Of a DNA stretch of 64,000 bases, positions 22,615 to 26,820 are shown piece by piece; the stretch's first letter is position 1, and every line of letters starts with the position of its first letter. The notes below the pieces were generated by a model that ran no database searches, was not told the origin of the DNA, and worked only from the letters and a program-made list of their open reading frames with translations. The DNA is from Halomarina ordinaria (lineage in GTDB: Archaea; Halobacteriota; Halobacteria; Halobacteriales; Haloarculaceae): the NCBI RefSeq assembly GCF_030553305.1, contig NZ_JARRAH010000001.1, positions 1,240,001 to 1,304,000 on the forward strand. The letters run 5' to 3'. A program made the translations under genes and the position numbers.

Positions 22615-23373
22615 GTGGGGGTCGAGATTAGGGAATCACCGGTCGCCGACGAGGAGTTCGAGGCGATGAAGCAGTTCGTTCACGACTACCTCGCGGCGAG
22701 CGTCGAGAGCGAGGAGACCGGCGGACGGATGCGCTGGTATCCGTGGCACTCCGCGGAGTACCGGTTCAACCACATCCTGAACGTGGTCGACCTCGCGACG
22801 ACCATCGCGGAGCGCGAGGGGGCGAACCCGGACGTCGTGCGCGTCGCCGCCCTGTTCCACGACATCTCGAAACTGGAGGCGGACCAGGACGTCCACGCCG
22901 AGGAGGGCGCCCGGGTCGCCCGCGAGTACCTGACGGCCCGTGGCGACTTCCCGGAGTCGTTCGTCGAGGAGGTGTGCGCGGCCATCCGCGACCACTCCTA
23001 TCAGGGGCCGCTCACGGACCTCCCGCTCGAGACGCGCTGTCTGGTCGAGGCCGACCTGCTCGACAAGGTCGGCGCCAACGGGACGGCGCTGATGCTCCTG
23101 CGGATGGGCTACGAGGCCCGCACGCACATGGACGCCTCGGGGATGGTCGCGCGCGTCCTCGAGCGCGGCGAGGACGCCGTCCTACGCATCGAGAGCGACA
23201 CCGCGGAGAGCATCGCCCACGAGCGCCTCAAGCGCGTGCGCTGGTTCCGCGAGTGGCTCGAGGGCGAGGTGAGCGAGATGTCCTCGCCGTCCGACGGGGC
23301 CGAGACGCGAGGGCGTGACGCCGGCCTCGACACGGGGGCGGACACGACCAGGAACGCCGACACGGACGACTGA
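22615..23373 (+). CDS. HD-domain phosphohydrolase
   Basis: 252 residues from a GTG at 22615; no closer in-frame ATG lies upstream. HSAEYRFNHILNVVDLA, VAALFHDISKLEAD and IRDHSYQG supply the H...HD...H/D ligands of an HD metal-dependent phosphohydrolase, with a later Asp in VEADLLDKVGANG. Related proteins hydrolyse nucleotides or phosphorylated metabolites; the substrate cannot be told. The last 35 residues are a disordered Asp/Thr/Arg tail with no domain. Divergent from alaX. Confidence 0.85.
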   Translation: MGVEIRESPVADEEFEAMKQFVHDYLAASVESEETGGRMRWYPWHSAEYRFNHILNVVDLATTIAEREGANPDVVRVAALFHDISKLEADQDVHAEEGARVAREYLTARGDFPESFVEEVCAAIRDHSYQGPLTDLPLETRCLVEADLLDKVGANGTALMLLRMGYEARTHMDASGMVARVLERGEDAVLRIESDTAESIAHERLKRVRWFREWLEGEVSEMSSPSDGAETRGRDAGLDTGADTTRNADTDD

Positions 23374-23393: not shown

Positions 23394-24083
23394 TCAGCCC
23401 CAACCCACGGGCGTCGACACCGCCGTGACGAGCGTGCTCCCCGCGTCGAGCAGGAAGTAACAGCCGAACGCCGCGAGCGCGAGCGCGCTGAGGCCGGCGA
23501 CGACCGGCGTGAGTGACTCGATGCGGCGCTCGGCGACCGTCAGCGCGGCCGGGAACCCCGTTATCCAGACGACGATGCCGCCGAACAGCCCGACGAGCAG
23601 CGCCGGACTTCCCGTCCTGACGACGAGCAGACCGGCGAGCGCCGTCGAGAGCGGTTCGAGGACGTCCTGCGTCCCCGGGTCGAGCAGCGCCACGCCGGCG
23701 GTGAGCCAGAAGAGTATCTGGTAGGGGTTCGTCAGCGCGAGGACGAACGCCTTCTGGAACCCCTTTCCCGCCCCGTCGGCGGCGCGGAACCGACCGCGCA
23801 CCTCCCGGGCCGCCCCGTAGGCGAAGTAGAGCATCAACACGCCGCCGACGGCGACCATCGCCGCCCGGAGGAGGGGGTACCGCTCGACGAACGCGACGAG
23901 GCCGAACAGCGCCGCGACGAGAAAGCAGAGGTCGGCGACCATCGCCCCGAGGCCCGCACGGAAGCCCGCGCCCCACCCGCGGACGACGCTCTCTTCGGCG
24001 ATGATGGCGTTCATCGGTCCCGGCGGCGCGGCCAGAGCCAACCCGAACACTACCCCCGCGAGGAACGTGACGACGACACCCAT
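23394..24083 (-). CDS. LysE-family amino-acid exporter
   Basis: 229 residues from ATG 24083. Six hydrophobic helices. The first reads TFLAGVVFGLALAAPPGPMN, the family's PGP motif region, followed by AIIAEESVVRGWGAGFRAGLGAMVADL. FVLALTNPYQILFW carries the conserved NP in helix IV. LysE/RhtB proteins export amino acids or small amines by proton antiport. Convergent with the HD gene, 20 bases apart. A TATA-like CCTAAACC (24109-24116, read on the minus strand as GGTTTAGG) precedes it by about 28 bases. Confidence 0.88.
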   Translation of the reverse strand: MGVVVTFLAGVVFGLALAAPPGPMNAIIAEESVVRGWGAGFRAGLGAMVADLCFLVAALFGLVAFVERYPLLRAAMVAVGGVLMLYFAYGAAREVRGRFRAADGAGKGFQKAFVLALTNPYQILFWLTAGVALLDPGTQDVLEPLSTALAGLLVVRTGSPALLVGLFGGIVVWITGFPAALTVAERRIESLTPVVAGLSALALAAFGCYFLLDAGSTLVTAVSTPVGWG

Positions 24084-24108
24084 CTCCCCGTGTGTTCGCG
24101 GTCCGTGA

Positions 24109-24116
24109 CCTAAACC
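24109..24116 (-). promoter_or_regulatory. Putative TATA box of the LysE-family gene
   Basis: Reverse-strand GGTTTAGG centred about 28 bases upstream of the ATG at 24083. The remaining stretch to the next gene at 24286 holds no ORF with coding character. Confidence 0.4.
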
Positions 24117-24285
24117 TGTGGTTCGGTGGTGAGCTTCAAGTACGATGACGGAACCATCGTCGCCGTGCGCTGAACAGCGTCGCGGGCCGACTCGCGGGTG
24201 TGCGACACACCGGCCCGCCCGTCGCGACGTGTCGCCTGTTCGCCCTCTCACGACGCACCAGCGGCGTGTCCGTCCGCCGAGCCCG

Positions 24286-25455
24286 TCAGAACCCCTGGCC
24301 CATCAGGTGGCTGCGCAGGAGGTCGGCGTCCTTCGTCCCCGTCGAGGTGTTGAGGAGCACCACCGTGTCGTCGTCGTCGAACTCGTCGGCCATCGCCCAC
24401 GCCGCGCTCGCGGCGGCCCCGGCGGCGACGCTCAGCCCGACGCCCTCGCGGCTGGCGACGGCGACGGCGCTCTCGAGGACGTCGTCGTCGTCGGTCGCCA
24501 CCGCCCCGCCGTCGCTCTCGCGCAGCGCCGTCTGGACGAGGGCGCCGCCCGCCGGGTCGGGACGCTCCAGACCGCCACAGACCGTGTCCGGCGTCTCCCA
24601 CGGCTCGTGAGTGTCGGCACCCGCCTCGAACGCCTCGACGACCGGCGCACAGCCCGTCGACTGGGCCGCGTACAGCGGCGGCACCGACTCGACGAGGCCG
24701 AGGTCACGGAACTCCCGCGCTCCCTTGTGGAGACCGACGAGCCCGTCCCCTCCCTCGAAGGGGTAGAAGACGGCGTCGGGCACCTCCAGGTCGAGCTGTT
24801 CGAGTAGTTCGTACATCACGGTCTTCGCCCCCTCGTGGCGGTACGGCGTCTCGAACGCCCCCAGCGAGTACCACGACTCCTCCTCGCTCGACTCGCGGAA
24901 CGCCTCCTCGGCGTCCGGCAGGCGACCCTCGACGACGCGCATGTCGCCGCCGTGAACGTTCACCATCGCCTTGTTGACGAACGTCGAGCGCGTCGGGACC
25001 ACCGGGTGGCTCGTCAGTCCCGCGCGGGCGGCGTAGGCCGCCGCGGAGTGCGCCGAGTCGCCGGGGCTCGCGAGCGCCACGTCCTCGGCGCCGTGGGCGC
25101 GCGCGGCGGTGAGCGCGAGCGCCATCCCGCGGTCGACGAACGTCCCGGTCGGGTTGGTCCCCTCGTCCTTCACGAGGACGCGCCCGACGCCGAGTTCCTC
25201 CGCGAGCACCGGGCAGTCGACCAGCGGCGTCGCCCCCTCGCCGAGCGTGACGAGCGACGCGGCCGGGAACGGCAGGAGTTCCGCGTACGCCCCGAGACCG
25301 GGGACGTCACCCACCAGCGCGTCGTGCGCGTCGAGCGCGCCGTAGTCGTACCGCGCGTCGAGGACGCCGCCGTCGGGGTGGTGGCTCGTCGTCGCGTCGA
25401 AGCGTTCGCCCGTCTCCGTGCAGACGAGGCCGTCGAACGCCGGGGTCGTGTCCAT
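24286..25455 (-). CDS. Threonine-synthase-like PLP-fold protein lacking the PLP lysine
   Basis: 389 residues with the fold-type II layout of archaeal threonine synthase: LVTLGEGATPLVDCP, then VKDEGTNPTGTFVDRGMAL, EGGDGLVGLHKGAREF and LNTSTGTKDADLL. In active threonine synthases the third block reads PTGSFKDRG and its Lys binds pyridoxal phosphate; here that residue is Val107 (codon GTC at 25135-25137). The following SPGDSAHSA also replaces the usual S-T-G-N-T-S/A. A cysteine near the N-terminus (LVCTETG) recalls the family's zinc finger but the partner Cys residues are missing. It is probably a non-enzymatic or altered-chemistry paralogue. Monocistronic. Confidence 0.82.
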   Translation of the reverse strand: MDTTPAFDGLVCTETGERFDATTSHHPDGGVLDARYDYGALDAHDALVGDVPGLGAYAELLPFPAASLVTLGEGATPLVDCPVLAEELGVGRVLVKDEGTNPTGTFVDRGMALALTAARAHGAEDVALASPGDSAHSAAAYAARAGLTSHPVVPTRSTFVNKAMVNVHGGDMRVVEGRLPDAEEAFRESSEEESWYSLGAFETPYRHEGAKTVMYELLEQLDLEVPDAVFYPFEGGDGLVGLHKGAREFRDLGLVESVPPLYAAQSTGCAPVVEAFEAGADTHEPWETPDTVCGGLERPDPAGGALVQTALRESDGGAVATDDDDVLESAVAVASREGVGLSVAAGAAASAAWAMADEFDDDDTVVLLNTSTGTKDADLLRSHLMGQGF

Positions 25456-25542: not shown

Positions 25543-26820
25543 ATGACACGCATCGCGGTCGTCGGTGGCGGTCTCGCCGGCCTCGTCGCCGCCCGCCACC
25601 TCGCCGAGGCGGGACTGGACGTCGAACTGTTCGAGGAGGAACCCGCGGTCGGCGGGCGCGTCCGGAGCGTCCACGAGGACGGCTTCACCTTCGACCGCGG
25701 GTTCCAGGTGCTGTTCACCGGGTACCCCGCGGCCCAGCGCGAGCTCGACTACGACGCCCTCGACCTGCGGGCGTTCACCCCCGGCGCGACCATCGCCCGC
25801 CCCGGCGAGCGCTCCGTCCTCTCGGACCCGCTTCGCGACCCCGGGTCGTTCACCGAGACGGTTTTCAACCGCGAGATACGCCTCGGCGACAAGCTCCGGA
25901 CGTTCACCCTCCAGCGCGAACTCCGACGCAAGGACGAGGACGCCGTCCTCGACGGCCCCGACACGGACATCACGAGCTACCTCGCCGACCGGGGGTTCTC
26001 GCGGGACTACGTCGAGCACTTCGCGGCCCCCTTCTACGGCGGCATCACCCTCGACCGCTCGCTCTCCTCGTCGAGCGTCGTCTTCGAGTACACGTTCAAG
26101 ATGCTCGCGACCGGCGAGACGGTCGTCCCCGCCGCCGGGATGGGCGCCATCTCGGCGCAACTGGCCGACCGCGCGCGCGACGCCGGTGCGTCGCTCACCC
26201 TCGACGCGACCGTCTCGGCCGTCGAGAGCGACGACGACGGCGACGGCGTGACACTCACAGTGGACGGACGGGAGGCCTCGTTCGACGGGGCCGTCGTCGC
26301 GACCGACCCGAAGACGGCCGGGGAGTTGACCGGCGTCGACACCCCGACCGAGGCGCGGGGCTGCGTCACGCAGTACTTCTCGTTGCCCGAGCACGTCGAC
26401 CTCGCGACTGACAAGCGAATCGTCCTCAACGCGGCCGACGACCGCCCCAACCAGGTTGCACCCCTCACGGACGTCGCCCCGGAGTACGCGCCGGACGGCG
26501 AGCAACTGCTCAGCGCGACGTTCCTCGGCGACCCCGACGAGAGCGACGACGAACTGGCCGCGGCGGTCCACGACGCGCTGGCGTCGTGGTACCCCGCCCG
26601 GCGCTTCGCCGACCTCGACCTCCTCCGGACCGAGCGCGTGCCGTTCTCGCAGTTCGCCCAGCCGCCGGGGTTCAGGCGCGACCTCCCGGCCGTCGACGCG
26701 CCGGCCGGCCCGGTGTACCTCGCGGGCGACTACACCGAGTGGTCGTCCATCAACGGCGCGCTCGACAGCGGGAAGCAGGCCGCGGACGCCATTCTCACGG
26801 AAATCGACCGGTCAGCGTAG
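25543..26820 (+). CDS. FAD-dependent amine oxidase / phytoene-desaturase-like oxidoreductase
   Basis: 425 residues. The FAD Rossmann motif IAVVGGGLAGLVAARHLAE opens the protein and is followed by the GG doublet FEEEPAVGGRV. The C-terminus YLAGDYTEWSSINGALDSG is the second FAD motif of the protoporphyrinogen oxidase / amine oxidase / carotenoid desaturase superfamily. Substrate unknown; carotenoid or isoprenoid oxidation is common in this family. A TATA element 27 bases upstream supports the start. The 3' end overlaps the convergent phosphoesterase by nine bases. Confidence 0.88.
   Translation: MTRIAVVGGGLAGLVAARHLAEAGLDVELFEEEPAVGGRVRSVHEDGFTFDRGFQVLFTGYPAAQRELDYDALDLRAFTPGATIARPGERSVLSDPLRDPGSFTETVFNREIRLGDKLRTFTLQRELRRKDEDAVLDGPDTDITSYLADRGFSRDYVEHFAAPFYGGITLDRSLSSSSVVFEYTFKMLATGETVVPAAGMGAISAQLADRARDAGASLTLDATVSAVESDDDGDGVTLTVDGREASFDGAVVATDPKTAGELTGVDTPTEARGCVTQYFSLPEHVDLATDKRIVLNAADDRPNQVAPLTDVAPEYAPDGEQLLSATFLGDPDESDDELAAAVHDALASWYPARRFADLDLLRTERVPFSQFAQPPGFRRDLPAVDAPAGPVYLAGDYTEWSSINGALDSGKQAADAILTEIDRSA

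Follow-up and report, generated by a model that had tools for sequence, protein, structure and literature searches.

A threonine-synthase-like protein of haloarchaea has lost the lysine that forms the internal aldimine with pyridoxal phosphate (PLP) independently at least six times among its orthologues, and the genes without this lysine are under the same purifying selection as those with it. The case studied here lies in a window of 64,000 nucleotides from Halomarina ordinaria (the whole stretch of DNA that was analysed), where the gene occupies positions 24286 to 25455 on the minus strand. As the loss is found in dozens of genera and is accompanied by matching changes in the pocket, the protein has probably given up its enzymatic activity and been conserved for a different task. 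The best explanation, to which a probability of about 0.5 is given, is that a former PLP enzyme has become a pseudoenzyme free of PLP, in which a non-catalytic role inherited from the ancestor persists, perhaps exercised together with the FAD-dependent enzyme encoded next to it.

The gene starts with ATG and encodes 389 residues with no internal stop, as the first-pass annotation had said in calling the reading frame full length. That annotation had also placed a GTC-coded valine at the position of the PLP lysine in the motif NPTGTFVDRG (residues 101–110, 25126 to 25155; this and all other features of the protein are on the minus strand), and alignment to the solved threonine synthases 2d1f, 2zsj and 6cgq confirmed that Val107 (codon at 25137–25135) aligns with their lysine. 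The internal-aldimine lysine expected of the PLP fold-type II family (PF00291) is thus missing. The adjoining motif SPGDSAHSA (residues 130–138, 25042 to 25068) had rightly been described as altered; it has Asp133 in place of the SxGN-loop Asn and Pro131 in place of Ala. The strand had not been given, and the extent of the changes had been understated, because the phosphate-binding loop (residues 233–239, 24739 to 24759) is changed too, reading FEGGDGL where the Lys-bearing orthologues have TGGGVGL. The protein therefore has neither the loop Asn nor the Gly-rich phosphate loop of fold-type II enzymes. Three acidic residues, Asp133, Glu234 and Asp237, sit in its cofactor-binding motifs, pocket residues being assigned via alignment to the motifs of threonine synthases.

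The family sequence and fold are clearly those of PF00291 (198.8 bits against a cut-off of 35, E 1.7e-58). An AF2 model built from a 21-row alignment had a mean pLDDT of 90.6 and a pTM of 0.92, and its best structural matches in the PDB were threonine synthases (2c2b, Z 49.2; 6nmx and 1v7c, Z 45.1), such matches spanning Z 41–49. Together these results indicate an intact fold that lacks the cofactor lysine. The NCBIfam equivalog model PRK08197, ‘threonine synthase’, accepts the Lys-less protein by a margin of only 1.3 bits (304.3 against a cut-off of 303), which is why automatic annotation names it threonine synthase; with TIGR00260 (thrC) it falls short of the cut-off (127.6 bits against 167.1). 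The label derived from PRK08197 is likely to be a misannotation, and many other haloarchaeal ‘threonine synthase’ annotations are probably wrong as well. The N-terminal region (25369 to 25422) resembles a metal ribbon that is degenerate in the window protein (C15T, C26H); C15 and C26 are also missing from some of its relatives, and are present in all sampled Lys-bearing and most Lys-less orthologues.

All eight genomes of the genus carry the gene, with relatives 69–82% identical and intact frames, and a relative at E ≤ 1e-60 was found in 342 of the 345 good-quality haloarchaeal genomes of an order-level sample. About 200 distinct homologues were gathered, from which bacterial rows and divergent Lys-bearing paralogues were excluded to leave 159 haloarchaeal orthologues. 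The lysine is absent from 104 of these, belonging to dozens of genera, and present in 55; as the sample was picked by similarity to the window protein and leans towards its close relatives, this share is not an unbiased estimate. Twenty further loci from family f4 gave 19 orthologues, all Lys-less, and one divergent Lys-bearing paralogue (L232). Valine itself, whose conservation the first-pass annotation had proposed to check, is not conserved: residue 107 of the 104 Lys-less proteins is most commonly Ala (42), then Thr (24), Leu (16) and Val (12), followed by Arg, Gly, Glu, Asn, Phe, His, Gln and Ser. The window protein was assigned to this orthologue group by its NKAMxNVHGG block, P289-D290, E297, C-terminal RSHLM and a locus beside the FAD oxidoreductase. 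Lys-bearing paralogues (L035, L036, L160, L189, L191–L195, L197, L199–L201, L134 and L037) lie at other loci with no such neighbour, and some share a genome with the Lys-less gene.

No alignment column gains a lysine in the Lys-less rows, except position 110 in genus g3, so that the idea of another lysine taking the vacant place finds no counterpart in the lineage of the window protein. Its conserved lysines 96, 162, 211 and 375 predate the loss, for Lys-bearing orthologues have them too, and the conserved Lys210 is also lost in Lys-less rows. In genus g3 (L131, L136, L137, L147, L148, L150, L154 and L155) Lys107 is absent and a new lysine (DRK) is seen roughly one helical turn further on, at position 110, where the window protein has Gly.

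Trees built without the lysine column, or with a broad selection of pocket columns taken out, required 8–9 changes between the K and non-K states, and a single ancient loss was rejected on trees without the pocket columns (AU p 1.7e-41). Besides one big Lys-less clade (families f1 and f4), losses were placed at L167 (f12), L054 (f6), L061 (f5), L180 (f7) and the group L065/L066/L077 (f1, genus g16). L082 lies inside the big Lys-less clade and has the lysine and an intact pocket; its placement outside that clade was rejected (p 0.004). Three species in the genus of the window protein (L031, L033 and L034) carry Lys107 although the rest of the pocket (V106, T131, D133) matches that of Lys-less proteins, the lysine having been either kept or regained. 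The early-stage losses L054, L065 and L066 retain almost all other pocket residues, which shows that the lysine can go first.

The median Nei–Gojobori dN/dS was 0.173 for Lys-less genes (65 pairs) and 0.166 for Lys-bearing genes (220 pairs), figures that are descriptive only, because the pairs are non-independent. What changes on loss of the lysine is where the constraint lies. Mean pairwise identity in the phosphate loop falls from 0.88 in Lys-bearing to 0.45 in Lys-less proteins, and in segment 204–216 from 0.95 to 0.64; in segment 154–182 together with the C-terminal tail 378–388 it falls only from 0.81 to 0.75, leaving these the most conserved segments after the loss. The block of residues 154–178 (PTRSTFVNKAMVNVHGGDMRVVEGR; 24922 to 24996) is almost invariant with or without the lysine, as is the family-specific C-terminal tail (DADLLRSHLMG, 24292 to 24324). 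Between them lies a further family-specific segment, residues 286–305 (24541 to 24600), in which P289, D290, G294, E297 and P301 are invariant and the changes G302A, A303G and S304G are common to independent Lys-less lineages. Unchanged in all 104 Lys-less proteins are R156, K162, A163, M164, N166, G169, P289, D290, G294, E297, P301, D323, D378, R381, L384 and G388; single exceptions to the conserved motifs occur among the later f4 loci (NKSM in L213, HGS/HGT in L231/L220). Most of the 154–178 block and the RSHLM tail differ in paralogues and bacterial relatives, and they are therefore specific to the family and not required for holding PLP as such. Constraint thus moves from the PLP pocket to the family-specific regions 154–178 and 289–301 and the C-terminal RSHLM.

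The pocket itself has changed in a repeatable manner. Three independent losses (L180, L167 and L061) each altered positions 106, 131, 133, 210, 235, 302 and 303. For the 175 positions with at least 95% conservation among Lys-bearing rows, the chance expectation for shared changes is 0.17, and none of 100,000 random draws reached seven. The derived residues also agree: A131T, G235S and A303G occur in all three lineages, N133 becomes D, E and D, and K210 becomes A or Q. Relaxed constraint at positions that touch the cofactor explains the shared sites; the shared residues suggest a direction as well. Acidic pocket residues number 0 per protein in Lys-bearing and 0.94 in Lys-less proteins, and side-chain bulk is increased in the latter at positions 235, 238 and 371, which are glycine in most Lys-bearing rows. 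Independent-pairs tests on single positions had low power, with eight pairs. Judged from these substitutions, the remodelling would fit a pocket adapted to the absence of PLP or to another ligand.

Genes with and without the lysine are orthologous and are found in one chromosomal slot. Around it the genes for eIF2-alpha, PAC2, a phosphoesterase, LysE and an HD-domain protein recur. In the window the gene is flanked by a divergently transcribed FAD-dependent oxidoreductase of the Amino_oxidase family (25543 to 26820, plus strand), a conserved neighbour, and downstream by a LysE-type amino-acid exporter (23394 to 24251, minus strand, start codon uncertain); the HD-domain protein of the conserved neighbourhood is at 22615 to 23373 on the plus strand. 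The FAD oxidoreductase adjoins 82 of the 104 Lys-less loci, being absent from the other 22, as well as 30 of 54 Lys-bearing loci and none of 27 paralogue loci. This adjacency is only suggestive of a partnership, as divergent genes may simply be neighbours.

A mechanism can be proposed in which a second role, independent of catalysis, goes back to the ancestral protein, and it would be for this reason that the gene survives as a pseudoenzyme. The second role would rely on the surfaces common to Lys-bearing and Lys-less proteins, namely 154–178, 289–301 and the RSHLM tail. The lysine could be lost, repeatedly, wherever the PLP reaction was no longer needed, and the empty pocket would then be remodelled repeatably, with small residues of the glycine loop enlarged and acidic residues introduced. 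A Schiff base would no longer be formed, and PLP binding has probably gone; a new site for a ligand or a partner may exist in the PLP-free state. The protein is most likely a regulatory subunit that binds a partner, for which the divergently encoded FAD-dependent oxidoreductase would be the best candidate. For the Lys-bearing orthologue, too, this non-catalytic role is a supposed one. In evolutionary terms the chances are about even that a near-universal haloarchaeal protein has turned from a PLP enzyme into a PLP-free one by the same path of residues on at least six occasions, giving one orthologous gene with catalytic and non-catalytic states and a shared second function.

Several other explanations deserve weighing. 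The protein might be a new, PLP-independent enzyme, with another active site made of invariant charged residues and with the old PLP pocket now serving another substrate. The conserved charged residues R156, K162, H168, R206, D290, E297, D323 and R381 would fit a new active site: all of them and N166 are invariant in the sampled Lys-less rows, with the exception of H168, which is found in all but one, and the convergence on A131T, G235S and A303G, three times each, extends beyond the sites to the residues. The charged residues are, however, equally conserved in Lys-bearing orthologues and so did not arise with the loss of the lysine, and pocket residues differ between Lys-less lineages (H, T, G, E or S at position 235). 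We think such an enzyme unlikely, and the ‘new lyase with another cofactor’ of the first-pass annotation gained no direct support. About as unlikely is a metabolite sensor that would recognise an amino acid, phosphorylated or not, in its remodelled pocket and signal to a partner such as the neighbouring oxidoreductase or exporter. R206, the Arg of the PYR motif when aligned with threonine synthases, where it binds the substrate phosphate, is invariant, and a LysE-type exporter adjoins some loci, but it does so at just 33 of 100 Lys-less loci and the ligand is putative.

PLP could still be bound non-covalently, since 59 of the 104 Lys-less proteins still have Asn133, and the NPTG..DRG motif persists, and another base might then do the chemistry. 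There is a precedent in related enzymes, for crystals of Lys-to-Thr mutants with ligands are known, among them 2tys (beta-K87T tryptophan synthase), and the Lys-less L054, L065 and L066 retain both Asn133 and the Gly loop. Set against this are the acidic residues that the window protein carries in its cofactor-binding motifs and the bulky residues that replace the phosphate-loop glycines in many Lys-less rows, and we regard continued PLP chemistry as improbable. Decay of the gene or a sequencing error is very improbable indeed. The relaxed pocket residues might suggest decay, but the relatives have full-length reading frames, dN/dS is about 0.17 and motifs are invariant across many genera. For the family, a sequencing error or strain-specific dead gene is refuted by the intact relatives, the dN/dS values and the 104 of 159 orthologues that are Lys-less. 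The first-pass annotation had argued against a read error on its own grounds, and the intact frames within the genus and a dN/dS of 0.25–0.29 between the window protein and its nearest relatives L029 and L028 agree with it. Had all homologues kept the lysine, its proposal of a selected PLP-family member that is non-catalytic or differently catalytic would have fallen; the frequency of Lys-less orthologues, the 8–9 state changes and the purifying selection support it instead. The pseudoenzyme with an ancestral second role thus remains our preferred explanation.

With the losses and the pocket changes both recurring, nature has in effect run one experiment several times over on the way in which an enzyme gives up its chemistry. 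The question is testable in Haloferax volcanii, in which genetics is easy. Replacement of the canonical threonine synthase (ThrC) by the Lys-less protein is unsupported, as a canonical ThrC orthologue is present in 46 of the 46 good genomes of the taxonomic family of the window organism. In H. volcanii, insertion in thrC3 (HVO_2969) gives a mutant that requires Gly/Ser/Thr (PMC4300041). This phenotype and the presence of a canonical ThrC elsewhere make it unlikely that the Lys-less protein is needed for threonine synthesis.

Comparison with known systems places the window protein close to threonine synthases in structure. It shares the fold of ThrC (2d1f, 2zsj, 1v7c, 6nmx; VIA-align Z up to 49), is about 30% identical to prokaryotic ThrCs and retains the NPTG..DRG motif; it differs in lacking the Schiff-base lysine, in having Asp for the loop Asn and an altered phosphate loop, in scoring below the TIGR00260 cut-off and in being encoded in addition to a separate, Lys-bearing ThrC (L002, TIGR00260 288.4 bits) in the same genome. 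With the Lys-bearing haloarchaeal orthologues (PRK08197) it has in common the locus, the 154–178 block, 289–301 and the RSHLM tail, whereas they retain Lys107, SAGNAGQ and TGGGVGL. Literature searches on fold-type II pseudoenzymes, haloarchaeal threonine synthase paralogues and archaeal PLP pseudoenzymes yielded no report of this protein family. A moonlighting cyanobacterial ThrC (PMC12172450) is a PLP-dependent enzyme and just loosely related. The nearest described analogue is TSB-like of plants, a pseudoenzyme that descends from tryptophan synthase beta and allosterically activates TSA (PMC12727527): it too is a fold-type II member in which key residues have changed and catalysis has been lost while a non-catalytic task is retained. 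Membership of that group is not claimed, and the partner of the window protein is a candidate by adjacency. The origins also differ, for TSB-like originated as a paralogue with an active TSB alongside it, the usual route to a pseudoenzyme, whereas in haloarchaea it is the orthologue itself that has lost its catalytic lysine, at least six times.
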